The position numbers and the translations under genes are program-made. A stretch of DNA of 64,000 nucleotides. Source: Tubiluchus corallicola (taxonomy: Eukaryota > Priapulida > Priapulimorpha > Priapulimorphida > Tubiluchidae). The notes below the pieces were generated by a model. That model saw only the letters and a list, made by a program, of their open reading frames with translations. It did not search any database and had not been told where the DNA came from. Below are positions 1-64,000 of the stretch, in pieces. Within the stretch, counting starts at the first letter, position 1; each line of letters begins with the position of its first letter. The stretch covers positions 1-64,000 of the forward strand of contig JAQGDQ010000108.1 in NCBI GenBank assembly GCA_030141605.1, in the 5' to 3' direction.

Positions 1-77
1 AGAGAGAGAAAGAGATAGAGAGGGAGGGAAGGAGAGAGAGAGAGGGAGAAAGAGAGAGAGAGAAAGAGAGAGAAAGG

Positions 78-112
<35 letters not shown>
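1..112. repeat. (GA)n purine microsatellite
   Basis: An uninterrupted purine tract of GA and GAAA/GGGA units runs from the window edge to about 112, so its true start is not visible. Such tracts can bind GAGA-type factors in arthropods (inference) but are also common simple repeats. Confidence 0.95.
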
Positions 113-113
<1 letters not shown>

Positions 114-141
114 CGAGGACCAGGTCGTACCTAGCACCAAG

Positions 142-483
142 ATGACTGTGACAGCACCAGCAGCAGCAGCAGCAGTGCTGCCACCGCCGAGATTGCATCA
201 CCTTCCAATCGTCACTGCTAGAATGATGACTAGAACAGCAGCTGTACCTAAAACAGCGTCACCGACGCCACCACCACCACCACCGTCGAGATTACAGCAG
301 CAGCAGCAGCAGCAGCAGCACAATGTCAACGTTCGGGTCGCGTCTGCTAGCAATATGCCACCACCGCTAACATCAACAACATCGACAGCAACAACAACAA
401 CAACAGTGGCGTCATCAACGAGCATGGGTCCCCCACCCAACATCGTTTTTTGTCAACCGGAAGAAAGCATCCGACCAGGATAA
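142..483 (+). CDS. low-complexity ORF, uncertain
   Basis: An ATG frame of 113 codons directly after the GA tract. The peptide is built from Ala, Pro, Thr, Ser and a run of nine Gln, with two Met-Pro-Pro-Pro type segments, and ends FCQPEESIRPG. The open frame is helped by CAG, CCA, ACA and GCA triplet repeats, which also keep the opposite strand open (198-443). No convincing splice donor in phase 1, as needed to join the first recognised NAV exon, lies within it. It might be an exon of an unseen isoform or a chance frame in repeat DNA. Confidence 0.2.
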   Translation: MTVTAPAAAAAVLPPPRLHHLPIVTARMMTRTAAVPKTASPTPPPPPPSRLQQQQQQQQHNVNVRVASASNMPPPLTSTTSTATTTTTVASSTSMGPPPNIVFCQPEESIRPG

Positions 484-6529: not shown

Positions 6530-7534
6530 TACCGTAAAACGGGGTGAGTTCGCCACCCGAGGGTGAGTTCGCCACCCCTTACGTAATGGCCATTGTAGGT
6601 TTGCTGTAACGGTTGTTCAGTGTTTAATGAACAGATATCATGATCACCGTCATTATAAACAGTTTGTGACAGTCATCTTCTTTCAATTCGCACTAGAAGT
6701 ATTCCATTCTGCGCTACATATTATTTGTCTACTATTTCTTGCTACTTAACATGCCACGCGCCTGCACCCCTGTACCGGGTCATAGATACCAAAATTATAC
6801 CCCAGAAGCTCTGGAAGTTGCCCTACATGCCGTCAAGAATACCAACAGGACAATCAACGCAGCGGCGAGGCAATTCGGAGTTCCAAGAAAGACCCTTTCT
6901 GACAAACTCTCAGGAAGTCATCCGCGGAAGACCTGAGGTCAGCCAGTGTTCTCCGCCGCCGAGGAGCACGAAATCGCCAACACTCCAAGTGGCCGTTGTG
7001 TGGGGGTTCCCAATGACTGCCATCGATCTCCGACTACTGATTAAGAGCGTTCCTGACGCGAAGGGAATCCAGGAACGACGATTCAAGGCAAACACCCCTG
7101 GAATAGACTTTGTCAAATCATTCGCCCGAAGGAACAATCTGGTTTTCAGAGTGGCTGGCAACATTAAGGGCGCCCGCGATAAGATCAGTGCACAAGACGT
7201 TCAAGCCTTCCTTGCCAACGTAGGGCCCCTTATTGAAAACGTCCCACCATCGAACATTTTCAATAATTCGGCTAAAACTAGACATTTTTCATAATTTTTT
7301 CATAGGGTGGCGAACTCACCCCCAACCAGCCAATCACAACCAGTTAACTTCAGCTGCCTAGAATGGCATTAAACAGTGTTAAATTGTTAGTGGCGAATTC
7401 ACCCCACGATAGTGTTTCATTCGAAAGGCAATATAAAGTTTGAACTAAGAAAATCGGTTGGGTAATTCTCTTGCTATGGCAGAAAATGTAAAAAATACCC
7501 CTAAAAAGTGGCGAACTCACCCCGTCTTACGGTA
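6530..7534 (+). mobile_element. deleted pogo/Tigger-like DNA transposon with pipsqueak-type HTH
   Basis: Twenty-seven-base terminal inverted repeats, beginning TACCGTAAAACGGGGTGAGT at 6530-6556 and repeated inverted at 7508-7534, differ at one position and include the TA target duplication typical of the Tc1/mariner/pogo group. The terminal motif is repeated in degenerate form just inside both ends (about 6561, 7307 and 7391). Internally, 6751-6936 encodes a pipsqueak-type helix-turn-helix (YTPEALEVALHAVKN, INAAARQFGVPRKTLSDKL), interrupted by a TGA and a frame change. The second DNA-binding helical domain (about 7015-7270) follows in another frame. The DDE catalytic region is absent, so it is a non-autonomous internal deletion derivative. 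Confidence 0.88.
6751..7293 (+). pseudogene. broken transposase amino-terminal region
   Basis: The frame from ATG 6751 encodes MPRACTPVPGHRYQ and then a helix-turn-helix of the pipsqueak/CENP-B class, with the conserved AARQFGVPRKTL recognition helix. It stops at TGA (6934-6936). Homologous sequence continues, then changes frame near 6985, after which an open stretch covers PDAKGIQERRFKANTPG and FVKSFARRNNLVFR, the CENP-B-like second DNA-binding domain of pogo-family transposases. No catalytic DDE domain follows before the right inverted repeat. The stop, the frameshift and the deletion make it a pseudogene. A longer open frame starting at 6725 reads the first part out of frame. Confidence 0.8.
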
Positions 7535-16424: not shown

Positions 16425-16573
<149 letters not shown>

Positions 16574-30375: not shown

Positions 30376-30596
30376 GATGCGCAGTCAAACCCTCGTATAA
30401 CAGCTAGTCGCCATTTATTGACCTCGGAGCCACTGAAGAGCTGTCCATCCAACATAAAGCGAACTGTGTCCAGCGGTACATCCATTTTGGATGCGGATTA
30501 CAGCTCCGACGTGGAAGTGGTAGATGTAGCAGAGGGGTACATGTCTGATGGCGGAGTATTGGGAGACAATATGAGAAATGAAGATTTGCTAAGTGG
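30376..30596 (+). CDS. NAV: NAV exon with DVAEGYMSDGGVLG block
   Basis: The acceptor ATATTTATAG and donor GTAAGG frame 221 bases, phase 0 in and phase 2 out. It carries SILDADYSSDVEVVDVAEGY followed by MSDGGVLGDNMRNEDLLSG. The GYMSDGxVL signature and the run of acidic residues in front of it are hallmarks of NAV proteins just ahead of the DDSSSISSG block. It joins the following short exon through a split Gly codon, giving a second GYMS motif straight away. This pair of GYMS repeats is also typical of the family. Confidence 0.95.
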
Positions 30597-30858
30597 GTAA
30601 GGAATAGATTTTATACTTAAAAATATAGTGCAGACAATTGTTTATTTAATTTCCATGTTCTTGGTTTACTGTTTTATTTTACTAGGCATTAGAAATGTTC
30701 ATTAGTTAGAGTAAACTAACTAGAGAGAAACTGTATTAGTAGTGTGGTATTGGTGAATTTCCACTTGCTTACGTCAGAACTTTACATTTTTTTGTGAGTG
30801 AAGCCATAAATACGTAAATACTGGGAAGCTATAAAATTATGTGCAATTCCTTTTGTAG

Positions 30859-42366: not shown

Positions 42367-42419
42367 CTCATGGATCATCATTATCTTTGGGATCCACCTC
42401 ATCGTCACTGTATTCTACA
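42367..42419 (+). CDS. NAV: NAV short exon, AHGSSLSLGSTSS block
   Basis: A 53-base exon with a TTTGCATTTCAG acceptor and GTAAGT donor, phase 1 in and phase 0 out. It encodes AHGSSLSLGSTSSSLYST. The AHGSS-SL-S-SSLYST string occurs directly before the coiled coil in NAV proteins, so this tiny exon is secure despite its length. It is too short to be found as a stand-alone ORF. Confidence 0.93.
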
Positions 42420-43193: not shown

Positions 43194-43292
43194 CCAGAGG
43201 AAAAAGCAGCTGCAGAAATCAAAAAGTTGAAAGTGGAGTTGGAAAATGCACATGACAAGGTGTCAACTCTCAGCTGTCAGCTGAGTACTCAG
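43194..43292 (+). CDS. NAV: NAV exon, start of coiled coil
   Basis: The acceptor TTTTTCTGACAG and donor GTAAGT frame 99 bases, phase 0 to phase 0. The peptide is PEEKAAAEIKKLKVELENAH followed by DKVSTLSCQLSTQ. The heptad-like spacing of Ile, Leu, Val and Leu and the match to the family pattern (EEK-x-EIRKLRRELE-x-x-x-DKV-TL-x-x-QLS) mark the beginning of the NAV coiled coil. The exon is too short to stand out as an ORF. A 19.6-kb intron follows. Confidence 0.95.
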
Positions 43293-44379
43293 GTAAGTGG
43301 ATTGATAATTAACTTTTTTGTGCACAAAAGATGGCGCCAGCTGCCAGTTCTTTCAAGTAAAACACACGTATAGATTCCCTGATGATTTCATATGCACCGA
43401 CTTTATCAATCAGCTGCCCAGCCTAGGGAGGTGTAAATCTCCTGTCCAAACTAATTTGGTAGTTAAGTAAATAATTACTTCTGACAGTTACAAATTGCAG
43501 AAAGTGTTGTGTAAAGTGCATTAGATTCATAGATTGCTTGTATGCCACTGCCAGGATACATTCTTAGAATTTGTTTAGATAATAAAAAATCATTTCGTTG
43601 TTACGTCATCAGTTAAATGCCTCTACGTAACAATAGTGCCAATAATTCATCATTTCCAGACGAAGAATGAAACGTGTCGTGCTATAACAGTGGAGCAAGG
43701 ACGACACCCATTTTGTAGTCCCAATAAATAATAGTAACACACTAACTTCGAATGGCACCACAATAAATTTTCACTTACTGTATCTAAAGTACAGTATGTT
43801 ATTTAGTTTTCATTTGAGAATGGCAGTTTAATGAAAAATTGCCAGTTTTATGTGTTTAAATTGTACTGCCGCAACTGCTGCTTGTCACACACATAGAATT
43901 TAAACAATAAATAAGGGCTTGTTCATCAATAAATCGATAAATATTCTAGTTTTGTCTGTGAGGAAAAAGGAAACTACATGGAAGCTGTATCAGGTATAAA
44001 ATGTAATTAACTAACTCTCCTAACATACAAGAGTTTGATCATGGGGGGCGTAATTATTGCTGCGTCTGTTGAACTCTATGCTGGGAGCCTTAGCAGCCAC
44101 CCAAGTGCCTGAATTAACACCCTTGAAAACCCGTTGTTACTGTCTATACTACTATGTGACTTCACTTGAAGGGGGGGGGGATTCTATCTCGTTTGGTTCT
44201 TTTGCTACTGAGAGTTAATAAGAAGAATGTTAAGTTAATCAGAAGTCGATTTTTTGCATTTGTGTTAATTGGGCTTGTTGATTTATTCAACGTGGGAATT
44301 TTTAATACTTTGTTGAACCTGATTTGTTATATAAACGTAGAATTGTCCTATCTGCATAAATTGCATAGATTGGGTTTTG

Positions 44380-44462
44380 TTGGCACCTGCAGTCGAAATT
44401 AAGCAATGATGACCCAGTCAGTAAATGGATGGGTGACCACCTAGAAGATTGCTATGTTGGCC
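44380..44462 (+). pseudogene. 5S rRNA-derived fragment
   Basis: The stretch reads GAAATTAAGCAATGATGACC followed by CAGTCAGTAAATGGATGGGT, GACCACCT and later GCTATGTTGGC. This follows the 3' two thirds of eukaryotic 5S rRNA in order (GAAGTTAAGCAACGTCGGGCCC, then TTGGATGGGTGACCGCCTGG, then GTGCTGTTGGC) and retains the internal control boxes for RNA polymerase III. The 5' part of the gene is missing and several paired positions are changed, so it cannot be a working 5S gene. It is either a truncated pseudogene or the head of a 5S-derived SINE; the sequence after it shows no tail I can identify. Confidence 0.65.
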
Positions 44463-47400
44463 CTGGCTATTTACCTCAGTAAGGGAGAATGTACACATGT
44501 GGAAACATGGGCCTCATCTTAGAGAATTATACGTAATAATGGAAATAGGTTCAGATCTCTGTTAACTTTCTACATTAAGTAAGCTCTGTCACTGAGTGCT
44601 GTGTAAAACATACATAAGAATTGTGCATAACTGCTATCAAAATAGTTTTCTTTTTGTCAAGTTTATTGTCACTTCCTTGTTGCTACAAAAGCACAACTAA
44701 CACCAGAAAATTCCCGTTTTCTGCACTTCATAAATGATATTCTAGGCTTCTGTTTGGTAAACAAAAGACTCGTATTAGTGAAGTTGAGGTTTTTTGGAAT
44801 TTCTGCAACCTGATATTTAATGTCAGTGAACCACGTTGTTTTGGTAAAGAAAATGACCTATTAAGAAAACAGTCGATTATTTTTTGTTCACTCCTCCTAT
44901 TGCTAATCACGTCCAGATTTCCAGTTTGCCTCTGTTTTCGTTGAACCGTTTGGTGTTATCGTCAGCATCACACTGAATGCTTTAGAACCTTGACTAGGAA
45001 GACTTTATTGTGTTGCAGAAGTTTCTTTTTGTTGAACTGAGTCTGTTTATTATCCCATTATACAGCTTTACTGCGACGAGAGTTCTATGAGGCAAGTTAT
45101 TATTTGCTCTAAGCGTGTTGAAAGCATTTATTCTTTCATTAGACAGCGTGAGTTGCAAGTTGCTGTAGCTAGATACCCCCTGTAATTTGAAAATGAAGCT
45201 ACCCACGTAATTAGCAGTCGACCACTGTGCAGTAGGCCTGCCCCTAGCCAGCTACTGATTGGCAGCCGGTTCACGTGGTGGCAGCTACTCGCGCTGAGAT
45301 GCGTGAGATTTACTTCTCTATTTACAAGTGCTACGAGTGACCTCTACCTTTCATCCGTTTATGTGGATATTTGCCCAACTTTTAGTGTGTCGTGTAGTTG
45401 AACTTGCAGATAATTCTGCTAGTGCAGTGATTTTGAATTAACTCAAGAAACAGCATTATTTTTGTGATTTGCAGAATTTACAGTTTGTGCTATTGATGAT
45501 TTTTTTATTTTGTGTTTTATTGGTATCACCTAAGTAGGTAAGGATGCTGTGATGTGAGTGAGCCTAACTTTGTATATGTATCTGTAATGACAACAGTGAA
45601 GCTTATTTAGTACTAAGAATAAAGTTGTGGTTTTTTGTTTGGAAAGTTGCGAAATGTGTGGAATACTGTGTATCGCCGGGTAATGAATGCTAAAGCATGA
45701 GAGGGTAATGTTAAATTCTAACTGTGGCGATGCTAAAAGTGTGAACAGGTCTTCTTGAGGTCACGCGTGAGAGTTTTGCCCATTTAAGCAGTTTTGGAGT
45801 AGTAGATGAATATCGAAAAATTAAATTTTATTCATATTAATGGTCGGAATTGAATTAACGCATGAAAAGTATCTGCTAGGTGCTGGTTGTTGGATTCATC
45901 GTGGCTTCATGATTACATTGCTATTTTTAATTTTTGCTATTTAACTCGTTTTTCTTATTTACCGTGGTTTTGACAAAGCGTCCTTCAACCTTTTGTCGGG
46001 TTTCTTTACCGAGTATAAACGAAAATGTTTTTCACATGTTGTTGCCAAGGTGTATTTGGTGGTAATTTAATACTTTTAGTCTCAGTTTTCCGGTTTTTTG
46101 CCTATTTTAATGACTCTGGGCATCTCGAAACTCAGTAGTTTCACAAATAAAAAAAACATTTCACTGGGTTCTTTGATAATTGACGTGAATTAGGAATTCA
46201 TTATAAACAGGCTGAAAGGCATGCTTACAATTTTCACCTCTATTCTTGGGGAAACTATTGGAGACTGCATATCTCCTAGGCATCAAAACAATGGCTTGTA
46301 ACCACTGTGTCATTTTTATCATGGTTGTTACCTCAACAATTTCCTTTGCCTTAATCTGAACTCAGCTCATCTGCATACACAATGCATTCCATCCTGTTTC
46401 TCCCTTTTGTCTGTCTAGTCCGGCGAAACGGTCAGTTTGTCTGGTCAACCGCGAACCTCAAGCTTTGCTGTATAGTGTAAATTATGGACAGCTGGTCCCC
46501 TGGCCGGATTATGTCTGAAAAAAGATGGGCTCCTCTTTAGCACTTTGCATTGTCTGTCGCCTTTATCGTGTCATATTATAGAATAGCTCTTGCTTTTATT
46601 AGAGGGGCTTACTTCTAGCTGCAATGTTATGGCATTTGGAGGTTTAAGTCTGGTTTATAATTTTCGTTATATTTATTGAAAATGTTTATACTGAATTTTA
46701 ATCAGTATTTCAAACATATGTTTATTATTATTTCGTGTTAGAAATTTCTTGATATTTTAATCAAGTCCTCCCATGAATTTTCCGTAGCTCATCTAAGCTT
46801 TCTTGGTTTAAATTTTGGTATGGTTTGGTTTAAGCTTTGTCATTGAAACGAACAGTGCCTGTAGTACCCAATAGCCGCTGGTCAGCATTGACTGGTCATT
46901 TGCAAAACCAGTTAATTAGAGCTGTTGTATTTACCTGCTGAGTTGGGTACATAAATTACTTGTTAGTTCCAGACAACGACTTTAACTCTATCAGTAATGT
47001 GATTTCGAGTTCATTTTATTCGCTCCAAATTTTCTCTGCTCTACACTAATAAGGTCATTGGTCCATGGTGCCCACCCACCTGCTGGAAGACGCCCTGATT
47101 TGCTGATAATATGCTCTTTTTTATTATAATCTTCTAAACTGTGATGAACTCTAACAATCATACAATTTGCATGAAACATGATCCTTCGTAATTATGCAAG
47201 TAATATTTTCATGCTCTCTTTGGCATTTCTGTTTTTCCATGTTCACTCGCCCATTCTGTGACATACCTCTATGGTTAATTACATAGTCAACATTGCCTTT
47301 TCGAATAGGTATCGTTTTCACTTCTGGTTAGCCAAGTACCTCAGTCTGACAAAGGCCTGGAACCCTTTCATTTGTGTTGGAAAAGAACATACAACATTTG

Positions 47401-48902
47401 CTTTTTCTCGCTCTCTGACAATTATTGTGAATTTGAATAGTGACACTGCCGTGGGCTGTTGCAATGCACGTGTCCAGTAGTGACCATCGGTCATCTGTCA
47501 GCTTGGGTACTAATTTATAAGAAATGATATTTATCGCAGTACTAATTTTACCTGTTGATAATTATGAGTTGTTCTGATTGTCGGCAAACATCAAACACGC
47601 ACTATTTAACCGCTTAAAGGTATTGAGATTAGTCGATTACTGACTTAGTACTCACAAATACTCACTGCAATAATATTCATCTCTTTGTTAGCAAAAATTG
47701 TTCCTTTGCGCAGCGTTACACCCTAACTTTCTAAAATGTAATACCCTGTATAACTGAAGGACTGGTAAATGCTTTGACCGCTCGTTTCCGATGCATTAAA
47801 ATTTGTTTTTGGAGCTCATAAACATAACGCTTTGTTTAGTACTACAGCTTTTACGTGACTTGAATTTGAATGGTTTATTTAAATATTTAATCACTGTCTC
47901 AAGACAAATGAATTACAAGCTTATAATGGCATTTTGCAGAACGTCACTGCTATTATATTATAAATCTTCTCTATTATATATTATAACTTCTCTTTATACA
48001 TGTTCGGTTACTCTATAAATCGTATCAAGCGCTTCATGCTTACACTTGTAGAAAGACCGGAACCTGTCGTTGTCAAGGATTATCCTCTAGGAGGAGTTAC
48101 TGAACCGACTGAGATTACTTTACCACTCTCAGCTGCATACATCCTCCCCCAGCAAGAACTGGAATATTTAGATACGATTTGTTACGTTATAGTTAAAAGC
48201 CATTGAGGATGTAAAAACTGAATCTTCTTTAAATGAACTTGTGCACAAATTTGCAGATGCGCAGATGTCAAAATAAGTATTTAGACTGTTAAAAACCCAT
48301 AAACTAAGACGTTAAACCGCTCTGTAATTTTTCGCATTACTAAGCGTGTATGCTAATTCACTGTTATGGGAGACTGAGAGTTATTCTCTCTTTTTCTGAG
48401 AGGGTGTGTTTTACAAGTCCTGGTGGTTATACCCTTGGGCGGCATTGCGCAGCTAAATTCTTTCTTATTAGTTTTCTGGAATGCCGGTATTTTTCGAATA
48501 TGAAGTTACACGCTCTTTGTTTTGGGTAGGTCGATATTCCATTCAGATGCAGTCGCTGTCGCTGTCGTGTTAGTACTGACATGGGATGATGTTCACTGTG
48601 AAGTTTGTAAAAATTGGGTCGTTCATTGCTGTTGGGAATGTGTGCCAGTTGCAAGTTCACAGCACGAACACTGTTTTCCTTAGAATCAGTTTTATCACCT
48701 CCTTTAATCTTCCAGAGTCTCTGTAAACATTTCATTTGATCTACGACCAACGTGCCAAAAAACGCAATCCATCTGGTGTCGTTTTCAGCATTTACATAAT
48801 TTGAAAGCGAAGACATCAGCAATACTTTTAGAAAAGCTCAATCCCTCGTGTAAAAATTGATTTAACAATGGGTAACTAAGGCTTGAGAGTATTGTGATAC
48901 AG

Positions 48903-48926
48903 ATTATTATTATTGTTGTTATTATT

Positions 48927-48958
<32 letters not shown>

Positions 48959-48963
48959 TATTG
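48903..48963. repeat. (ATT/ATC)n trinucleotide microsatellite
   Basis: An ATT/GTT tract passes into a pure CAT run of about eleven units. It reads as poly-Met on the opposite strand, without coding meaning. Confidence 0.95.
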
Positions 48964-51900
48964 TCATAATAATGCATTAATAATATTTTAATAGTTGCAT
49001 TATTGGAGGGCCGCAAGTATTGTCAGTGCACATATTCTACGTGATAAATTGTTGGATTTTATGCCTGCAGCAAAAGCCTATATCTACTACAGAAAGAGCC
49101 AATCACTGTTTCTGAGTTAACATGTGTGTTTTTCTTACGTTTGAAGGTGCGAAGCAATTGCTGTTCTCCCGTCTCTGCAGCCGACTGTTGGTAAATATTA
49201 TTCTAACCATGACTCGGTCGTCCGATGTCCAAAGCCAGCTTTTCGTTGGCATCTGATTCCAAAATATTTGCCCGCGTGTGCGCCGGACGAAGTCATGTTT
49301 TTTGTCGGATTTGACTCAGGTGTCGACTTGTTGGCGACTGGAATGTAAGCTAGTGCTTGTTAGAGTAAGGCTTGTAAACCGCAATTGAATATTGTGCGAT
49401 TCTTGCATATGCTTACATTGTTTAGATGCGTGGCCACTGAAAGGTCTTTGGTTTTATAACATAACAAAAGCTTAGTTAAGTATTATTCAATTAGCTAAGT
49501 AACACTTATGCTTACGAGTTTTTTCGTCTTTTCTATTTTAAAAAACAATTGTACATATTGTCAGACGATCTTTAGAAAAAAATAGGTCCAAAACATTACG
49601 CTGTGCTGTCTTCATATGTGTCCTTGCAATTAAATTCTCTATGATTTTAACGGCTAATTGAGACTTGTGGTATTGAAGGAAAACAGTTTGCGTTACTCAA
49701 CAAGAAATATCAAAACGAGTCTAAACATAATTCTAGGACGCTGATTATAGCTCATTACATGCGATCAGTGCACAGATCTGCTGCAGAGAATGATTTGGTT
49801 GCATCAGCGACTGATAACGGTAACGGCTACTGTTGAGAATATATGACTACTGACTGGGTAACGTCAGATATACAAAACTACAGCTGTTACGTAATGTTAG
49901 GATGTCTGTCACTCCCGGCTCATAATAACTCGTCTGTCTTGAACAGCATGGAGTCGAGTCACTAATGTCAGTTTAGGGGGTGGCTGTTAATGGACCTTTT
50001 GACATCTTAATTTACAACGCACCCAAGACTTCTTTTCTATATACATAATCATTTTCCTTATTATACGTACTGTTATATGGTCATCTGTTACCAGTACTTT
50101 GGCCCACCTTTCCACATTTATAAAAAGCATTTCATTTTGGTAAAAAGCATATATTACCATTTCGTGTCTTTTGAGATTTGAATTAAGTTGAACGATCATT
50201 CATATTGATAAGTTCAAGGTTCCATTTTACTCTAACTTCAGTTGAATGGATATTCGTGCCGTACAGGTAAATTGATTAGTTGTTTATTTACAGTAGTGTG
50301 TAAACAATAACAACGTGTGTACGTGGACATCAGTGTAAATACTGGCAGTATTGCAGTGACCAGGATTCCAGGAATAGCATTAATAGTTGTTTAGTCAAGT
50401 GGTTCTCGATTTTCAAACTGTCTTTGCAACGAGGAAATGATATTCGTACATAATGTTTATATTTCACGATTCTTATTCACTCAGACTGGATATATATTTC
50501 ATGTGTCTAACCATAATATGTACCAGCCATATGCCCACGCTTCAAGATTAACCTCTCTGGTGTATGGAAATGCGTGGTTAAGGTCTTGTGAGATTTGGTA
50601 ATATACTGTGTCCTATATTCCATGAAGCCGTCTTCTGGTTCAATTTAATACACGAAAACATGTTAAATATTACACAGGTTTCCAGACTGCGTATCGTTTT
50701 GGATATCTCTTTCTCTTGTTAATGGCAATTTTTTCTATTGTTATTAATGCGAGGTCAAGTCAGATATCATCATTGTTGATCTCAAAATGTGTTTGACTTT
50801 TATTTGCCTAACTTGCATGATTACCTCCTTGCAATCCTTGGACATTCTGATTGCACGCGTATAGCTATCTGACCCATATGACTTTTATACGTAAATGATT
50901 TTTTATTTAGAGGAAAAGTATATGGTACACGCACTTTTTGTTTGCTATTAGCTTAAAGTTTAATTCTATTACCTGCCTAGTAGTTTTGTAGTTGCATAGT
51001 TTTGCAGTTACAGTTCCGCTAACGTGAGCCGCGTTACCCTCTTATGTACTTGAGACGAATAGCATTTAGCAGTTTCCTTAATTCAGAATAATTCAGAATA
51101 GTTTCATAGTTCAGAATGTGGCAGCTCAGGCTTGGCTTCGTGTCAAAAAAGACTGTATCATTTGAAGCTATTAAAAAATTCAATAAGTATACCGATGATC
51201 TACTGACTTTTAAAACAAGAAAAAAACGAGAATTGCCTACATTACTGTAAATCAATGTTGTAGATGGCTAAAGCCAAAAATGCCATATACGCATGTGCGT
51301 ATAATGTGCAAGTCGTTCGCGTGGTACCCGTTTCAGCCAGGAGAAGAACTGCAAACAACACTGAAAACGAATTCTGTTTGATTTCAACATCCATGTCCGC
51401 AGAGATTTGTGGTTTTTAATTTCGTGTGAATGTTCTAGTCTGTCTGCTCTCGGTGCTATATGAGTTTGAACTGGTTATTGTTGTTCTGCTTACGGAAAGC
51501 GATACAAGCGCAAATAGCCGTAGTTGTAGGTGGATGGAAATTGTTAGGAGACGGAATAAGAAATTCGTTACCATCGGGCACTGTTCGTGACTTAGATATG
51601 ACTCGAAGGATAAAGTTTGTCTCTTATTTTCTTCTTGTACAGACTGAGTGAACTTGTATGATTGACTGGTATTTCGCTAATTCACAATATCATCTCGGCA
51701 TTTCCATTACAGATTGTTAAAAAGAATGCAGAACTACCATTGAAACTAATGTTCTTTCACAACGCCACACAGGTGGCGCTAATATCAGTTTGCCGGTAGT
51801 AATTGATGAGCCCTACAAAAATTATACTAGCTACTTGTCAGAAAAATCACCCTGAACAGGCAATGATAAACTCTTTTAGGCAACAAAAACTGTTACTTGA

Positions 51901-53062
51901 TAGGATAATGTTGTAGTTCATTTTGACTCGAGTGGTTCATTTTAAGTTATACAGATTAGTTATTGACTCGTTCGTGCTGTTTCTTACATTTTTTCAATCA
52001 TTAAAGAATTGAATCCTTTGCATCGTAAGTCTTTCTACAGGCAAAGTCTTCCCAGTGCTGAAAAGGATATCAACAGCTGTTGCATTTTTCTTCCTCCTAG
52101 AATTCCTCGGGTTCAAATTAGCCCGCACGTTTTACTGGGATGAAAATCATCTGTGCCTCTTTACACCAAACGTATGAAATTGCGAGACAAAAACCAGAGC
52201 CGCCGGTCTGTTCCGGGTGTTGGCTTCCTTTATGTTAAAACATCACAACTATTGAAAATATTTGTAGGAAAAGATCATGTATCATGCTATTCGAGGGCGA
52301 GCTTCTTTTCACCGTGAGTTTTATACGTGGATGGAATCTGGTGTTTCTTTTCAGCAATTCCCCCCCCCCCTTCTTTATCTTGGTAGTGTCGTTGACAGTG
52401 TAGACTTGCTATAGAATCATGCAGATCATCTGTTTTTGATGATTTTCAGGCGAGGATCCGCAATCAAGGCAATTGTTGACTGTTTAGGTAATACACGCCG
52501 TGCCCCTCGCGGCCAGCACATCTGCGGTCATCTTTTTCGCCATAATTTTTCAATTATTTTGTTTGTTTTTTGCGACTGGCTGCAAGATGTTGTGATCTCA
52601 GCGATTTTTGTCACTTGGCTATTTTCCTTTGAGTTCTGTGTGACGTCAGTAAACTTGATGTCTTGTGTGGCTGCTGTGCTTCAGCTGTTTTTGGTAAAAG
52701 TGAGTGGATGCATTATTGGAAGCTTGACATCAGGAAAACGATGTTTATGTCTTAATGTTAATTGGTGCTGGTTAAATAGTGTAATATAATATCCGTACAT
52801 GCACATGGAGGCCTGCGTACTTACGATCATTCGATTCTACTTTTTACTGTGATGAATAGAAGTGGCAGAGGTGAAGAGGGACAGAGTTTGAAGAAGTGCA
52901 GTTTAGTGTCGCTGTTGCTAGTGTAGACCCTGTGTATATGAACTGTACGGTTGTGTTAACTACCCGTCGTGTGACGGTGCATTTGATCCTATTGCGATGA
53001 CGTAGTGATTGCGGTCGGCGTGGGATTTCACAGGTGTGAGTTCTAGTGTGAGTAATCAGCAT

Positions 53063-53069
53063 TATATAG
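53063..53069 (+). promoter_or_regulatory. TATA-like motif upstream of alternative first exon
   Basis: TATATAG lies about 300 bases before the ATG of the Asn/Ser-rich exon, and an initiator-like CCAGTT follows about 22 bases later. The spacing is shorter than the usual 30 bases, so this is only a weak candidate core promoter. A CRE-like TGACGTAG lies at about 52997. Confidence 0.15.
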
Positions 53070-53368
53070 CTCACTAAACACTCCAGTTGTGTTTGCTGAC
53101 TTGCTAAATGTGTATGCAACTTGGATGTGAGTAAAAATAGGAACTCCTTTAGTAGGGTAAATTAGAACTGCGCGTTGAGTCATACGTGAACGGTGTTATG
53201 TGTGCTTGAAGTGAAACTGGTAAACCAGTTGGTTTGATGCGTGTGATTTAGTTCATGATAAATCACTTTACGAGGTAATGGTTCGTTAAATGCGTTTTAT
53301 ACATTCTTTACTTTATAGCTGTCGACTGTGGGTGCGTAAGTAGTAACACCCAGTTTAATTGATCAATC

Positions 53369-54112
53369 ATGAGTTTTTGGCTGAATTGGGACCTCAAGAA
53401 TAACCAAAAACTTCCCTCTGGAGAAGAAACGTATTACAACTATAATAGTGTCCCAACTGTTGTGCACAATAGTGATACTAAATCTGTAAAAAGTGTGTCG
53501 GTTGTTGTGCACAATGCAGAGAAATCGTGTGAAAAGCACAGTAATCGTGGAGCGTGCAATGGTTTGCTAAATAACGGCCCTGTGCTGAACAACAATGTAA
53601 ATAAAGCCACAAGCAATTACGGGTCGCTAAACAAACGCAATGGTTCAGTTTACAACAACGATTTGTGCGTCATTAACACGTTCAGTAACAATGATCCGTT
53701 CAACAATGCATCTCTTGGCAAGTGTTCACAGTATAACAACGGAATTTCTAATGACAGAACTTCCAGCCCCAGTGGCAGCTTGTCAAGTTTGAGTAGTAAC
53801 GGTTCTTCTGTAAGCAATGGTCTTTCGAGCAACAATGGTTCTTCTACATCCAGCAACAACGGTTACTATGGTAATGGTATTTCAAGCACTAATTCAAACA
53901 GTAGTTCGGGTTCCTCGTGGCTTAGTAATGGATATGGAACAATATCTCGTTGTACCACAAATGGATATTTCAACGGGCGAAGTATGGCGCTATTGCCAAT
54001 GGAACCCATATCGGAGCTTACGGTATATGGTTCGGAACCAACAACACCTACATGCAAAGACCCAAAGGAGTTGGCCAAGCTAAAGCATCGTTCTTGCCCA
54101 AATCCATTTGAG
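53369..54112 (+). CDS. NAV: candidate alternative NAV first exon, Asn/Ser-rich
   Basis: An ATG-initiated frame of exactly 248 codons inside the 19.6-kb NAV intron. A stop codon (TGA at 53360-53362) lies in frame just upstream, so this ATG can be the true start. The peptide begins MSFWLNWDLKNNQKLPSGEE, then becomes extremely rich in Asn, Ser and Gly, and closes with the more ordinary PKELAKLKHRSCPNPFE. It then meets a donor (AG/GTAGCT) in phase 0, exactly what the acceptor at 62935 needs. Without splicing the frame ends four codons later. Direct observation: a long open frame, its start and the donor phase. Inference: an alternative promoter yielding a short NAV isoform. It might instead be a nested single-exon gene. 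Confidence 0.7.
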
Positions 54113-55768
54113 GTAGCTATAATATAATTAATAACATAATCAAAGTCATAGTAATATCATACATACAATTAAACATTAATTGGTTGATAGATTATTCCAT
54201 TGAAACTCAACATGCAGTAGTGCAGGCAAAGTTTACTCACAAGAACCTTTGTGGTTTGACATGTCTCACAAATTTAAGCTTGTTTTCTTTTTCTTGGTTA
54301 TGCGGCCAGACGTTATATTAGACAGAGGACTATAGTTTAATGTGAGAAGTGTTTCGAAAAACACAGATCTGCTTAATTTGGCATTTTGAGAACACGCAAC
54401 ATTTTGCTGTACAATATATGTGTAATACTCCTAGAAAAACGATCATCAAATTGATGGTAGTTCCTCAACAGTGTATCAAGGTCAATCTCATAAACTCGTG
54501 ACAAAAAACAACATTAACTGATAAAGGAGTTGGATTTTTGGACTATCTTTGTTCAAGCAGTGTGTTTTTGTGATGAATTTAGTGTTAAAACAACTCAGAA
54601 AATACAAATATTTGTTTAATCTGCATTATTTCATTGTCCTTTACGTGTCACTGTATGACTTTGTGAAACGTGCAAAATAAAGTTCATAACGTGTGTTGCA
54701 TACTAAAATCTAACCGACAAAAACATAGCAGACCCTATAAACGTACGTAGGGTTTCAATAAAATACCTCTTAAACTGATTATTAAACTACACCTAAAATA
54801 GATAAACTTTGTGAACTGTTATGCCATAAAATAACTGACATGTAGTTATTATAAACGTTGAGACTATAAAAGAGCACGTAATGCCTAGTGAATAAATATA
54901 TCCTACAGTTTTTGAATTGCTAACAATTCCTGCTTTCGGTATTGAAGGTGTTCACGACATTATGTACACCAAACGGGAATACTCGAGTATCCTTTCGACC
55001 TTGCTCTATAATGGGCTAGAGGTATCAGTTTCCAAAAATGGCTGTTCCAGTTCCACCATACACTGAAAAGAGGACGTGTACACATATGACCCGTTTAAGG
55101 AAAAAGTACGTTTTGATAGATGGAGCCCATTTTTGATAGTTACGAAAACAGTATAATGTACAAGCTGACAGGGACAGGTGCTCTCTAAAAGAGCTGATAA
55201 AGCTAGCAGATTTAATGTTAGTGCATATCCCTAAAATTCCTTATTTACTTAGGTAAGCGTTGTACATTCATTTACATTATTTACATTGTATATTTTTTTA
55301 CATTTATTTAGGTAGGCGTTGCTTTTTGGCAGAATTGAATGCGCACGTCTTTAATGCCTCGTTATCATGCAGTCATTAAAAAGCAACGATTTTTAACTAC
55401 ATAAACTGCACACGAACTGTGTCACGTAACTCTTTACCTGCGTACGTTGAAGGTTATTTATTTTGTTGGGTAAACAGTGTCATTGTTGGCAAATATTTGA
55501 ACGGGTTTTTTTTTGTAATCGCCTAGTCTATGCATAAAACTCTGAATCATTTCGTATTTCCAGTACGGAATACCCTTTCACATCAAATACAATGACGTCA
55601 TCAGTTTTGTTGATCGGAGTAGTAATAACACTACTTTCTCCATTGCGGTTGCATGGTGTATTTACTGTAAGTTTAAGAGCTTTTATAGTAAAAAAACAGA
55701 AACGAATTTCTCCCGGTATTGAACTGGCATTTGTATAACCACAATATAGTGTATGCTGAACAGTGCAA

Positions 55769-55900
55769 TATCCAATGTATGATGCTGACGTGACATAGTT
55801 CTGAATGTTCAAATAAGACACCGTGACGCACCTTGATGGCCTACGTGACCCTGTAAACGCGTGTATGATTCACACAAAAAAGAGTTCACTGTTCCTACTG
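55769..55900 (+). repeat. 132-bp direct repeat, copy 1
   Basis: The unit beginning TATCCAATGTATGATGCTGA and ending AGTTCACTGTTCCTACTG recurs at 56199-56330 with three substitutions only. The two copies are 430 bases apart in the same orientation inside the large NAV intron. High identity indicates a recent duplication. It is not a recognised element. Confidence 0.92.
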
Positions 55901-56198
55901 AAATTTGAAAAGCAATGGTTGGCGTTTATCTAACGTACGCGGACACCTGCACGTGTAATGCCTTTTTCAAAAAACATCACAGAAAATTGAGGCTGAGTTT
56001 ATTATATGTAATCTATAAAATTAAATCAAAATAATTAAGTACGTTAGCCTGCAATAGTTTTTGTGGAATAAACTTGATAGCATGAAGTTTTGTCAAGTAT
56101 CAGCATCAGTAATAGGGCGCATAGACGTTATGAAAAAAGACATAAGAATTGCAGACAATATCTGCTGGATTGAGATGTTTTTAACATTCGTTTTTCTT

Positions 56199-56330
56199 TA
56201 TCCAATGTATGATGCTGACGTGACATAGTTCTGAATCTTCAAATAAGACACCGTGACGCACCTTGATGGCGTACGTGACCCTGTAAACGCATGTATGATT
56301 CACACAAAAAAGAGTTCACTGTTCCTACTG
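56199..56330 (+). repeat. 132-bp direct repeat, copy 2
   Basis: The second copy of the unit at 55769-55900. Its end is followed by an extra TTCCTACT, a small tandem extension of the terminal GTTCCTACTG, which looks like replication slippage. Confidence 0.92.
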
Positions 56331-59300
56331 TTCCTACTTTTCTTAAGAGCGTCTCTGAACTGTAAAAAACAGATGGACGAAGGAGAGTGTATTTATTCCC
56401 CCATGCCTTGATGTCACTTCCCTTCTTGATGTTTGTTATTATATTACTCTTTGCCTACTTGTACAAATACACGTAGTATTTATGCATGAAAACATGTGCA
56501 CGAAACCATCAAATACGAGTGCATTCTTAGTTTTAGTCTGAATCCATTACACATGCGCGCTCACGCATACACGCGCCCATAATTTTGGACGACACATAAA
56601 TGTATTAATTTTACCGGGCTGCACCATTTTTTGCTCACACGTTTTTATTGAAGTTGAACTACATTAATCATGCTAAGCAATAGAGAGGGCGACTTCAGCA
56701 GAATTTGCAATTGAAGCTGTAGTTAATATCTAGTTGATGTGTCGTAATCTGCTACGAGGGGACATTTCAGTTGATTCAGTAAATTGCTGCTAGAAGGATT
56801 TAATTCTTAGTGTAAAGTTTAGAAATTAATTTTGTCAAAGTTAATACATGGAGCATTCAAGATTGACTACTTTTTGCTAAGGATTAAAACTTGAATCTTC
56901 ACAATTATAGAGATCAATGAATGTAGTATTGCTTTCACTTCGATTCACGTATCAGCTGTAGCTTGTGCTACAGATTTAGGAAAAACAAAACTGTGATTTT
57001 ATTCATGCTTTGCTAAGCAACAAAACGAGCACAGTTTTTCATTTAACCATTCCGTCATGCGCAAGTAAGATCCTAAATCAAAAGACAGCTGCATATACGC
57101 GCCTATATGCGTGAATGAATGCGCGTGCATATTGTGTGCACGCGTAAAATTTGTGTTTGGGTGGTCTGCATGTCAAGGACCCGAGGCGTCCGTAACACGT
57201 GGCGCACTTGCAAATACCCCCGCATTTTCGACTACTTCAGTATTTTTATGAGGTTTTTGTGTAATAGACACATCGACTAACTACCTCTTTGCGTAAACTG
57301 TCGAGATAATACGACTCGCCGTCCAGATGCGCTTGCATAAATTCTTGATCCGGATGAGAGGAATTGGTTTTTATAGTCCCAGGGGAATATATTTCAAGTT
57401 TACAAGCCAGTGGCTATAATAATGTGAAAATATCTTTTGCAGATAAAAAATGTTAGATGCCTCTACTGGTTATATTAACAGCAAAACCTCTTGTTCGCCT
57501 CTGTACAGCTTTTGTCACTGTATTCGTGCCATACGATTTTTGTCAAACAATTTGCAGCATTTTTTCACATTCTCAATGCGCGTTCTAATTGTTTCGCAAC
57601 AAACTTTAGTTGGATAATTAGTTGTTTGTGTGTCCAGTCTACCAGCGTTCAGAAGTAGTAATTCTAATTTTGCGCAACTTCATCGCTAGCTTCAACATGG
57701 AGTTAACAACATTTTCTATTGTTGAGATTTCTTTTTGAAAATGGGTGGACCCAGGATGGCGTAGAAAGATTTGATTATTTGTAAACAAGCCTGTCCAAAT
57801 AAAGCGTGTTTTTCTGCGTTTAAAGCATTCAATAGAATCAAGATACGTGAAATGTTCTCGATATTAGTACAATTTGAAGATGAAGATTACTTAAAGGCGA
57901 TGCCAGCTTTCTTGTTTTGCTCAGAATGATCATAAATGCTTTCTTCAAGTTTCTTGTTTTTGGCGAACATTTTAAACCCCCATTTGTTTGGAGACATTTT
58001 CGACTGTTTGCGCGGATTATGAAGCTGGGATTATTTTACGTGTCAAGGGTAACCGCCTAATGGATTTAGCTACCTGCGTGATCTTCGAGTTACCTCACAC
58101 CTGAGATTCAAAAAGAGATTTTTATCGTGACTTCCTAGCCAAAAAGTGAAAACGTGGATGGCAAAGGTGTGTACAAGGTCATTTGTGTGGTCTTGACTTT
58201 GTAATTCTCAGTAAGTGGGCTGACTTTCCATTTTATTGCAGATTCCCCCACTTTTAACAAGTTTGAATGTCGTTGATAACCTTAATCTTGACGACCAAGG
58301 AATTTAAACGCCTTATCCCAGCATGAAAGTGTCTCTAATGGTTTGAAATGTGTGTGTTGCATTGTAAGCTCCCATAAGCGTCGCTGATTTGACGTTATCT
58401 TTATATTCCATCATTTTAAGGGGAGAGTACTTTTAAAGTTTTCGTTTCACCTCTTAAAATTCTAGTCTGTAGAGCATTTTTTGTTTGGGAATACAAGGCT
58501 TAACATTGTTTTGATTTATATGCGCCATACTTGTCTTTTTTACAAGCATTTCACTTCAGGATTCGGTTTGCATTAGATGTTCATCTCCACTGTCACCCGC
58601 CAGCATGTAACTAAACTATATAAAATTTCCAGACAACTTTTTCGTGTACTAGCTAAGCTCTTTAAATTGCGTCTGATAGGATCTACGGGAGTGCTTAAAA
58701 TTCCCAAGGGGATGCGCCAGTGTTTAAAAATGCGTTTAAACAGTAGATATGCATCTGTAAGTGGTTCGTCCGTTAAGACTGTTGAGTACTACAAACTTCT
58801 TTAAAAGTTGCGAGATGCTTGTCAGATGTAGTTTAAAAATCAGTTTCAAAATAAGTTCACTGACAGGGTGTTTCAGAAGTCGCTCACTAATTTGTTTTTC
58901 GATTGTTAATCTTTTGGTAAACGACGACGTTCATATTGTAGTATAAAAAGCTCTTACACCCAGTAGTTGAAGTTTTTTAGTGCACAGTTGAGGTTTTGGG
59001 GCCGATTTCTTCTGCATATTGTGCATTCTGACTCTTAGACAGAGTGTAAAATCGCTGCATGACTACAGAAAGAGCATTAAGTAGGTGTAAATTAAAATCG
59101 TTGCAATAGACTTATGAAGCCAAATTTCATACCAAGTATCGCAGGCTCGGTAAAAAAAATGCCATTTGAGTAATTTCTGTTGACTATTGTAACTGTTGTT
59201 TTAATAATTGATTAAAATAATGAGAAACTTTCAAAACAGTTGATATATATATAGTGGTATTAATGCTTTGAGGAATTAAATCTAGCTATTAGTAGTTAGG

Positions 59301-59339
59301 ATTATGTATCTGTTGCGTCATGGTCATTCGGAAGATTAT

Positions 59340-59387
59340 TTACACACACGCATGCACATTGCACACCCTCACACGCATGCACACAAC
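59340..59387. repeat. CA-rich microsatellite
   Basis: An imperfect ACACAC/GCATGCAC repeat with two CACACGCATGCACA-like words. Confidence 0.8.
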
Positions 59388-61513
59388 TACTGCTTTGACA
59401 GCGGAACTTTATTAGAGTTGAGATACCGCTAGGTCAATAACGTTGATTTTCATTTTAACTACTTTGGTCACAGTCGACGTATCTTAACTGCTCACATTCT
59501 CATAAAACTGTCTGCGCCATGAAGCATTCTGGTGGGCTTCTGATGCACACGCCGTATGTTTACCCATCACATGATGCCATTTACATTTGCAGTTTTTGGG
59601 TAATTGCTGCATGACTGCGGAGCATTTACAGACCGATGACCGACATATTTTCGTGCCAAACGGTGATCAGAATGTTCAATGACAGTGATAAAACTTCGTA
59701 ATTTTTGGTTGTGACTTTGTTTCTGTTGTTGTTGTTTTTGTTGTTGTTTTGCGAATTACTTCCTTGTTTGTGTCGCTACACGAGTAAGGGCGTCTAGAAG
59801 ATTAACAAATTCTGCATTAATCGCATTTTTTTCAATATTGAATGACAACATTGAAAGCGTTTCGCGTATCGCAGTTATACTGTCAAAACTGATCAACTTC
59901 AGTCCATTTACCTGTGCCACATAATTAACGACCTTAAAGAAGCGTTAATGATTCGTTGTCTGCCCTACATTCCTGCCGGAATTTTAGTTTTTCAATGCCT
60001 TTCCTCGACATGTTTACTGTTTAAAGTCGAACTAGAAACTTGATTTTCGATCACTGTTTAGTCTTAATTGATGTGATTTGTGGCAAAGCCACCAGTAACA
60101 CATTAAAACCCGAGTTAAAGCTCGTTCAGTTTGTTTCATAAAAGCGTTTGACGTGACTCATATTTTAGCGACGAGCTGATTGAATTTTAACTGTGGGTCC
60201 CACCTTGAAAGCATTGTCCAAGAAAACTATTAAACTCGCGTTTTTGTACCTGTTGCCCGGGGTGATGCAAGAAAAGCAAAATGGCCAAGTTAATTTGAAG
60301 AAAGTGAATGGTGCCGTCCATCAGTCTGTGAAGTGACGCGCATTTCGCAAAACGTGTGAACTTGAATTGGTCAGTCAGTGTATCTGCATCACATGTGTGA
60401 TTATCAAATTAAATACTCTGATGCGTGAAGTGGAGAAAATGCTAAGCAGAGTTTAATGATTAGTTACAACTTGATACTTTGTTCGTAGCACTATAAAACT
60501 AGTAGCTTGAGTTAATGTTGTCATTCCGTTCTGAACAACGTGCGGTTATGGTTATGCACTGTCGGTTAAACTTTAAAATCTTCAATCGTGATTTGAAGAT
60601 TGTCAGTTACTTTTGCCGTATTTTTGTTTCACAAGTTTCTTGCAGTTACTGTTGAAGTATTTTGTTTCTGGAACAAAGGTTGCTCGCAATTTTCGTATTT
60701 GAAGTTATTGTGAAAAGTTGAAAATCAAAAAGTGATTTATGAAACTTCGTGTTTTGTCTAAATTTTGCAACTGATGTATGATATTAAAGAAAAACAGTCT
60801 GTAAAGCTGTTTTCGTTTTACTCTTCTTACATTTGCGCTCTTAAGATGCCTTTTAATACATCATAAGTTCATGGTCATTAGCTAACTGGCTTTTCCTTAC
60901 TTTCATTTTATGTAGAACCTTCGAGTAGAAATTTCTTAGCTTGTGTAATTATCTTCGTCTTTTATGGTAGTATAAGAAGAGTCCTTTGTTCCTAAGAAAA
61001 GCTGCAGCTGGGTTGCGAAAAATATGTGCCCTAGAAAGTGAAAATCAATGCGAAGTAAGTTGGTGTTCTAAACTGAGAGGTAAACGAATTATTAGCATGT
61101 AGGAAAACCAAGGATTATTGCTAATGGGAGGGAAGAGATTTCCGAAATAAAACATCATCGATATTTTCATAATTTTCTCTAAGCCTCAGTGGCAGGTTTT
61201 CCCTCTAAGGGACTAAACTAGGACGCAACGATTGCTGAAAACCCCCTCTCCAGGCGAATAGATGAATCGCATGTTTGCTCCAGCTTCGAGCTTCGTTACA
61301 ATGGATGTCTGTTCACTGTTGTTTACATTCCTGCGTCTGTGACTTGGTTTAGAACGCATTTGGACATAAGGACATTCGCAACATCTGCCGTCTTGAGCGT
61401 TGAGGAGCTTGCATCTAGTGTCAAAGTGCAGAACTAGGTTTACGCTGGGATTTTGGGAGTAAAACAAGCGAGAAGCTTTAGCATAAATGCATCACATTGT
61501 GTGAGCTGCAGTG

Positions 61514-61594
61514 ATGAATGCAAGTTGGGATAGATTTGGTTCTTCTATTAGCGATAGGAGTATGGAGTATAATAATTGGGAGAAGATTTGCATG
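61514..61594 (+). CDS. NAV: candidate alternative NAV mini first exon
   Basis: A 27-codon frame reads MNASWDRFGSSISDRSMEYN followed by NWEKICM and then a perfect donor (ATG/GTAAGT) in phase 0, compatible with the NAV exon at 62935, 1.3 kb downstream. An in-frame TGA lies four codons upstream (61502-61504), so the ATG can be the real start. The 300 bases before it look less AT-rich than the surrounding intron, as expected of a promoter and 5' untranslated region. The peptide is not recognised. The evidence is splice-signal quality, phase and base composition only. Confidence 0.4.
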
Positions 61595-62197
61595 GTAAGT
61601 GCGCATGCAAAAATAAATTGTTTACATAGGAGACGACTAATTTTCCTGGTGTTTAAATAAACCGCTGAGCGCCAAAAATTTACTTCCCTAAAATGGCCGC
61701 GAAGTTTGAAAATAATGTAGTTGAACATTGCCATGATTAATGTTTTGACACAATTTGTCTACAAACTGTGATTTCATCCGACTAGTACGCGTGTCTTCTA
61801 CGTGTCAAGTAAGCTAAAAATGATCGCAAAAGGCATTTTTAAAATACTCAGCTGCCAGGTGCTTAATAACTGTTGATTAATGATCATTTGAACTTGGCAT
61901 TCAATTGATCATTTGTCTTGTTGGCGCGCTTTCTGTGGGTTTTCCTAACTGATAGGGATGGTTCACTACTAACACAAATAACTCAGGAAAAGCAAACAAA
62001 TCTACTAGGATAATAAACGTGCATGCGAGCAAAATGTGCGGGATATCGGGATTGTTTTTCCCGCGCTTCCTGTTTAACGGTAAAGAGTTAATCCGCCCTG
62101 GATTAAAAGTTAAATCTCTTACCCACCGCATTGCTATAATACAGCCACTGTGCCTGCACGTTTTACTTGATTTATCTTACGCAATAAAACTTTTTGT

Positions 62198-62367
62198 GAT
62201 GACGAAAATTTTTATAGTTTAAAGCTATGTTAGTAATCTGGCTGCTTTACCCGAATTTGTATTCTGGTTTTTTAACCTTTTATGATGATGAAAAATTTTA
62301 TAGTGTAATTTAAAACTATGTTAGTAATATGATTACTTTACCCGACTTATATTTTGGTGTTTTTATG
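62198..62367 (+). repeat. 85-bp diverged tandem duplication
   Basis: Two adjacent units start TGATGACGAAAATTTTTATA (62198) and TGATGATGAAAAATTTTATA (62283) and share CTATGTTAGTAAT and CTTTACCCGA further on. They lie between the candidate mini first exon and the exon at 62935. Confidence 0.8.
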
Positions 62368-62934
62368 TTATGCACACGTTTAATCTCTATTTTAATTTAA
62401 TTACGAAAGGCTCTAATTTTAAACCAGAAAGTCGCCTACCACGTTAGTCAAGATTACGCCTGACACTAGTCTTTGTTTGTGAAGGCGCTAACCCTTTCCA
62501 TTCGTTTGAGTCTATACTGGGTTCAAGTCATCCACAGTGTTTAATTTTTTTGACCTGCAATTTTTATGTTGGTTACTAAGACTCGTAGACCAGTTTCCCT
62601 CAAGCCGCTGAGGTTTGTTAACGAATGAGCATTCGTATAACAGTAGTGTCACTTCACACAGGACGCCTGGAAAGTTTATTTAACGAAAGTTAATTCATGG
62701 TGGCACAGATGAAATTGTAGTTGATTAATTAGATAATCACATGCCTGCACCTTGCCATTAATTCATGTTAACCCCTAATATTTTTTACGTAGGAAACGTA
62801 ATGTTATTTGTCTAAGGATGTTTTTACTCTGAGGCACAGTTTTCGACTTAAGATTTACTTAGTGCAGGCGTTTTTAGGGCAATCTGAATTTTACTGGGCT
62901 TGTTTTACTATTTCAATGTTTTTTTTTATTTCAG

Positions 62935-63018
62935 GGTCACGTTGTATCAGCATTTGAACAGAGCTTATCCAATATGACCACACGATTACAACAACTGACA
63001 ATGACTGCAGAGATAAAG
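62935..63018 (+). CDS. NAV: NAV exon, AFEQSL coiled-coil segment
   Basis: A long pyrimidine tract ending TTTATTTCAG and the donor GTAATG frame 84 bases, phase 0 to phase 0. The peptide is GHVVSAFEQSLSNMTTRLQQ followed by LTMTAEIK. AFEQSL-NMT-RL-L is a highly conserved NAV coiled-coil element directly after the segment encoded by the previous exon. The exon is a shared acceptor for the upstream chain and, by phase, for the candidate alternative first exons at 53369 and 61514. It is the last exon in the window. Confidence 0.96.
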
Positions 63019-64000
63019 GTAATGTTACTATTTTTCCTTTGTGAAATTGTCATATCTTCTAACTACTTTTGTTTTTCTGCCTTCTGGCATAATTGTTTGC
63101 AATTACCAATAGCAACGCCAATCCTGTGTATCTCTGCCTGAATAATAGATTTTATATTACATTTAGTACTTTCCGTGTGTATGTGTGATAGTTGGGATTT
63201 ACGTTTTTCTCACCTTTTACCATTAAAAACATATATTCTGCAGCTACATGCGTCTCTTACTGTCAGCAAATTGTTTTCTGTCGTGTAGAAACACGATTTT
63301 ACAGTAATCACAAAAAGTGCGTGCATCCAAATCTATTTTAAGATGGTTTCAAAACTTTGATTTTGTGCTATTGCCTCAATGTAATCTGGGAGCTTCTTTA
63401 GATTTTCCTTAGGAGTTTTTAGAAAAACATATAAGTATATTTTGCTTATTTGTATGGGCTAATATGTTTGATGAGTTCCTGTGGGCTTGCATGGTTTGTA
63501 TAATCTTGTGTTCTGTCCTGCATAAAGCAGAGTTCTAACCCCCAGGCTATTTGGGGAGGAGGGGTGTGGAATGTTTGAGCATCCCTTCTCTTCACATGTT
63601 TCATTAGTGTGGTTGAATCCTGAGCTTATTTTGAAAATGTTTTGAAAACATTTGTGGCATTTTGATGCCAAGAGAACAGAAACATTCAAACTGTGACTTT
63701 CTTGTTCCCGGCTAAGCTGCCTAAATGATATGCAAATAATAGAAGCTCTGCGTGCTCAGCAAAATTGGTCAGCTAAGAAAAAAGTCAAATAATAATTTGC
63801 AAGGTTAGAAAATGCCTCTGCACTTACAAAGTTTCTTGCAATAAGTTGCACAACAAAAAGAAATGTGTCTTTTTTTACTGCCTTTTTTAACTGTTTTTTA
63901 ACTTTTTATTACTGTCTTTTTAGTACAAATTGTACACTTGGTCTTTCATGCTTTGTATTTGTATCATTTTTGTAACCAGAGGTCAGTTTCATAGCAGTGT
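63019..64000 (+). other. NAV intron, continues past window
   Basis: Intron after the AFEQSL exon. No further exon is recognised before the window ends, and a 76-codon minus-strand frame at 63459-63689 shows no family features. Confidence 0.8.

Follow-up and report, generated by a model that had tools for sequence, protein, structure and literature searches.

A candidate alternative first coding exon for a short Navigator isoform in a large intron of a Tubiluchus corallicola gene

Does an Asn/Ser-rich open reading frame (ORF) lying inside a large intron of a Navigator gene begin a second, shorter form of the Navigator protein? The question is raised by a 64 kb stretch of DNA (hereafter the window), which forms the start of a 615,738-base contig in the 343.5 Mb source genome, and for which an alternative first exon had been proposed within a NAV gene (hereafter the original prediction). 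The features that define the proposed exon and its surroundings are the following.

43200 to 43292, forward strand: Navigator exon preceding the large intron, EKAAAEIKKLKVELENAHDKVSTLSCQLSTQ, donor CAG/GTAAGT, tblastn E 0.005; presumably the start of coiled coil 1, by comparison with NAV1
43293 to 62934, forward strand: large intron of the long transcript, 19.6 kb, placed from the exon ends
53319 to 53368, forward strand: possible 5' untranslated region; an acceptor-like TTTATAG before 53319 ranks in the top 5.9% of 3532 AG sites
53369 to 54112, forward strand: proposed alternative first coding exon, 248 codons, Asn/Ser/Gly-rich
54113 to 54118, forward strand: donor of the ORF, GTAGCT, PWM score 6.24, top 2.8% of 4291 GT sites
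54125 to 54127, forward strand: TAA in the frame of the ORF, 12 bases past the donor; the end of the protein if the donor is unused
62935 to 63018, forward strand: shared Navigator exon, phase 0, GHVVSAFEQSLSNMTTRLQQLTMTAEIK, tblastn E 3.7e-04

The layout given in the original prediction was borne out. A TGA lies in frame at 53360-53362, upstream of the ATG at 53369, which has an A at position -3, and the 248 codons close with GAG (54110-54112) directly ahead of the GT at 54113, which is the phase-0 donor that had been claimed. From stop to stop (53363-54127) the open frame has 254 codons and ranks third in length on the forward strand. The description of the amino terminus as Asn/Ser/Gly-rich was likewise accurate, with 41 N, 47 S and 21 G counted in the 248 codons. 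A 27-base direct repeat (78% alike, copies 45 bases apart, 53444-53515) is also present, and reads NSVPTVVHN and KSVSVVVHN in the frame of the ORF.

By its similarity to known family domains, the host gene is a Navigator (NAV/Sickie/UNC-53), in agreement with the original prediction. On the contig beyond the window, a downstream exon frame matched the NAV ubiquitin-like domain PF23092 (E 6.6e-18; 65 bits, cut-off 27), and two downstream exon frames matched PF25408, AAA_lid_NAV1, above its cut-off (1.5e-11 and 3.4e-21). Together with a downstream exon encoding the P-loop GPSGTGKS, for which general AAA/NTPase models were matched only below their cut-offs, these matches place the expected ATPase further along the same contig. 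The best PDB relatives of the P-loop exon were McrB proteins (7.3e-05), which agrees with the assignment of Navigators to the McrB family in the available part of a review (PMC9877351). A human NAV1 sequence, used as a tblastn query, matched the window at 43197-43298 (E 0.005) and 62938-63051 (E 3.7e-04) and located further exons beyond it at C1717:64473-69688, including C1717:65088-65249 (E 2.1e-14). The assignment of exon parts to coiled coil 1 (CC1) and coiled coil 2 (CC2) is assumed by comparison with NAV1. Many tblastn rows fell on a Ser-coding (CAT)n array at 16.4 kb (43 units, window 16443-16572) and were set aside as low complexity, as was a match of the Ser-rich part of the ORF (53753-53926) to NAV1 at E 0.31.

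Upstream of the large intron, ten exon pieces comprising 1136 residues were assembled, with ends set by eye and with the frames at 42369, 30376 and 19-483 left out. SxIP-type motifs (TGIP, SNLP, TFIP and TGIP, with TxLP falling outside the pattern) were found in three of the ten pieces. Any N-terminal CH domain of the host gene would be expected upstream, perhaps beyond the end of the contig. Several other stretches of the window were noted. Frame 19-483 (forward strand, 154 codons) contains Pro/Gln/Thr runs and has a strong codon score of 0.421, and no Pfam family exceeded its cut-off there. Either a further N-terminal exon of the gene or low-complexity DNA at the beginning of the contig could account for this frame. 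Frame 30376-30600 (forward strand, 74 codons, ...YSSDVEVVDVAEGYMSDGGVLGDNMRNEDLLSG), which seems, judged against human NAV1, to be a conserved Navigator exon, overlaps the beginning of the stretch with the highest GC skew in the window, at 30501. Frame 6659-7294 (forward strand, 211 codons) had no Pfam match and by eye resembles a mobile-element protein, and two near-identical tandem copies of 93 bases occupy 966-1154.

The frame 53369-54112 looks coding-like. Simulation of 240 sequences of 64 kb, with 60 for each Markov order from 1 to 4 and the intron as training set, never gave an ORF as long as 254 codons on either strand; the longest had 243. The two longer forward-strand ORFs of the window, at 38395 and 25738, are tentatively taken for Navigator exons from their position and reading frame and from tblastn matches that are weak (E 0.009 and 6.1). 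The period-3 score of the ORF was 7.99; 163 overlapping windows of the intron averaged 1.1 and did not exceed 3.56, and the two ORFs at 38395 and 25738 scored 9.81 and 10.59. A codon model trained on three Navigator exon pieces gave 0.033 bits per codon in the frame of the ORF, -0.216 and -0.448 in the other forward frames and negative values in all three reverse frames; none of 510 intron frames of equal length matched the score of the ORF, a result somewhat favoured because the same intron also provided the background. Among 510 intron frames of 186 bases, the score of the last quarter of the ORF, with its tail, was reached by one and that of the first quarter by four. The coding signals disagree in places, since the codon score is slightly negative for the first quarter (-0.069) and for the second (-0.169) by themselves, and the last quarter has a low period-3 score (1.05). 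Asn is encoded by 22 AAT and 19 AAC codons, Ser by all six of its codons, and no trinucleotide run of at least three units occurs in the ORF; this mixture of synonymous codons, with triplet runs lacking, fits a selected protein and not the growth of a repeat.

Splice sites were scored with weights drawn from general knowledge and not derived from the source species. The exon ...LSTQ, for which 43194 and 43198 are acceptor candidates at the 5' end, ends at 43292 in phase 0 with a strong donor (score 12.76). At the other side of the intron, the acceptor at 62935 opens GHVVSAFEQSLSNMTTRLQQ / GHVVSAFEQ in phase 0 and had the top score among the acceptors scanned at 54161-63000. The pairing of the ORF with this acceptor, as originally proposed, was upheld: both sides are in phase 0, and 62935 is the best-scoring acceptor downstream. 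The donor of the ORF is the highest among those listed within it and is only moderate (GAG/GTAGCT, with no G at +5); the other exon pieces have donors, chosen by eye, with scores from about 4.5 to 12.8. When 630 other ORFs with 40 codons or more were taken as a control (both strands, Navigator exons included), equally good donors near the ORF end were found in nine cases in phase and in 41 cases in any phase.

From the features described above, a short Navigator isoform probably has its first coding exon at 53369-54112, and this isoform would lack both the SxIP-type motifs and the beginning of CC1. Transcription, we infer, would start within the large intron, close upstream of the ORF or at an additional non-coding exon that is spliced to 53319. 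The ATG at 53369 would be the translation start, and the donor at 54113 would be joined to 62935 in phase 0. The resulting protein would carry a disordered Asn/Ser-rich N-terminus, followed by the remaining part of CC1, CC2, the ubiquitin-like region and the AAA+ region; the SxIP-type motifs would be missing, as would all else encoded before 43292. The likely effect would be that the same ATPase core is released from EB-dependent microtubule plus ends and redirected by the new N-terminus. The coding-like frame, the Navigator host and the phase-0 ends of the original alternative-first-exon reading all stood; its statement that the coiled coil is kept held only in part, as CC1 would lose 31 or more residues, those encoded by the exon that ends at 43292, and retain the rest. 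Its claim that the SxIP region would be dropped is in line with the present analysis, in which the motifs found sit in frames that the isoform would skip, and no [ST]x[IL]P motif occurs in the ORF. AlphaFold, run on the single ORF sequence, gave a mean pLDDT of 32.3, with 243 of the 248 residues below 50; this fits the disorder proposed for the N-terminus but is uninformative.

For the short isoform, a spliced 5' untranslated region using the acceptor before 53319 and a start site just upstream of the ORF are equally plausible. With eight ATGs at 53001-53368, a leader that is not spliced would be burdened; one spliced to 53319 would meet no ATG ahead of the start codon and is attractive for that reason. 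None of the promoter motifs upstream of the ORF convinces. Inr was not enriched there (one match, where 80 background stretches averaged 3.15), Inr+DPE pairs were absent (background mean 0.24), CpG showed no rise near the ORF beyond intron values, and one TATA-like site, counted with no background comparison, lies at 53063. A GC-skew peak at 52701 was second of 634 windows, with similar values at 30501 and 45301.

The chief rival to this reading is a separate gene nested in the intron, with a single coding exon that runs to the TAA at 54125 (252 residues) and a transcript polyadenylated near 54690. The signal on which it would depend is the following.

54676 to 54681, forward strand: AATAAA then GTGTGTTG, a possible polyadenylation site for a nested gene

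We regard a nested gene as unlikely. In its favor, the frame closes only 12 bases past a donor that is not strong, and the follow-on of the AATAAA at 54676 is the most GT-rich among the 14 AATAAA/ATTAAA listed at 53000-60000. However, a nested gene would need a promoter of its own as well, the donor that it would leave unused is the best listed in the ORF and is in phase with the best downstream acceptor, and a nearby AATAAA is not striking where 18 occur across the whole 19.6 kb intron. It is improbable that the ORF is instead a first coding exon whose donor joins another intronic exon, giving a different or longer isoform. Fair acceptors do exist at 57925, 58242 and 57509, and an exon shorter than the open stretches behind them is possible, but all three score below 62935 and the phase-0 frames that they open close after 16, 21 and 49 codons, respectively.

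A non-functional remnant or a chance open frame is very improbable given the length and coding signals of the ORF, even though no relative was found in the collections searched. Those collections included no other animal genome and could hardly contain a relative; a pattern search returned five stretches in viral contigs and 37 in genome contigs, none of which was confirmed. A single PDB match at E 1.8 was taken as chance. Origin from a simple repeat or a transposon was rejected, with no tandem array found in the ORF, no second copy of it found in the source genome and no Pfam family at E up to 1. Duplication of the CC1 exon was also considered, as ELAKLK resembles EIKKLK by eye, and was rejected when BLAST of the tail against the 43200-43292 exon gave no match at E up to 1000. 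Finally, a coding cassette exon of the long transcript is scarcely credible, for although phase 0 is shared by the ORF end and both flanking exons, the frame is stopped at 53360, entry through the acceptor before 53319 runs into a TAA when continued in phase 0 from the upstream exon, and the three internal acceptors listed in the top 10% (53520, 53779 and 53854) are out of phase.

The short isoform favored here can be compared with what is reported for the Navigator family (human NAV1-3, Drosophila Sickie and C. elegans UNC-53), which is the same gene as the host and has in common with it the NAV ubiquitin-like domain and the AAA+ lid, with exons like the coiled-coil region of NAV1. In the available part of the review, low-complexity disordered stretches and several isoforms are described as usual for Navigators, and the isoform pairs hNAV1 1/2, hNAV2 2/5 and Sickie B/J have unaltered coiled-coil and AAA+ domains (PMC9877351). 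The proposed isoform differs from these pairs, as its CC1 would be truncated and all that precedes CC1 lost. A Navigator core that lacks the CH domain is likewise seen in NAV1 and in the Trichoplax sp. H2 NAV-like protein (CC1-CC2-AAA+), and hNAV1 has two SxIP motifs, according to the same portion of that review (PMC9877351), whereas none was found in the new N-terminus. A late internal promoter that yields an N-terminally changed protein is described for intron 17 of BAI1/ADGRB1, with transcript variants reported, in the accessible text of PMC11711277; the Navigator exon, by contrast, is predicted here from its sequence. No isoform starting inside CC1 was found in the partial texts that made up the Navigator literature searched, and animal databases may well annotate such isoforms. 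Nor was the exon 53369-54112 described in the literature searched, which was available in part and whose scope did not extend to most subscription papers or to annotated animal transcripts.

Two short motifs bear on where the new N-terminus might direct the protein.

53693 to 53701, forward strand: DPF triplet, ORF residues 109-111
54101 to 54109, forward strand: NPF triplet, ORF residues 245-247, just ahead of the donor

Neither triplet occurs in the ten upstream exon pieces. DPF binds the AP-2 ear. In 20000 shuffles of the ORF, DPF and NPF occurred together in 0.02% and NPF alone in 3.9%, and since the triplets were picked after reading the sequence this result is only a lead. The accessible part of one study describes the binding of NPF by EH domains and the association of the EH domain of POB1 with Eps15, which bears DPF triplets (PMC2238750). 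NPF also has non-endocytic partners, with a subunit of DNA polymerase epsilon named as an NPF receptor in the portion available of another (PMC12808100). Nav1 promotes macropinocytosis and TrkB uptake, as stated in the part of the review consulted (PMC9877351). A new N-terminus with DPF and NPF could tie the isoform to endocytic adaptors. It is doubtful, and offered as speculation, that an internal promoter swaps the SxIP-containing, plus-end-targeting half of the protein for a disordered Asn/Ser-rich N-terminus with DPF and NPF, giving microtubule-tip and endocytic-adaptor forms of one AAA+ enzyme. If true, a dedicated isoform would stand behind the role reported for Navigator in macropinocytosis and in the uptake of receptors.

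Navigator's AAA+ domain is described as having no defined activity in the available part of the review (PMC9877351). A natural isoform consisting mainly of the coiled coils and the AAA+ region, behind a different N-terminus, would split microtubule targeting from the enzyme core, and given such an isoform the role of the core would be testable alone. The endocytic motifs, if real, would provide a route from this gene to membrane uptake.
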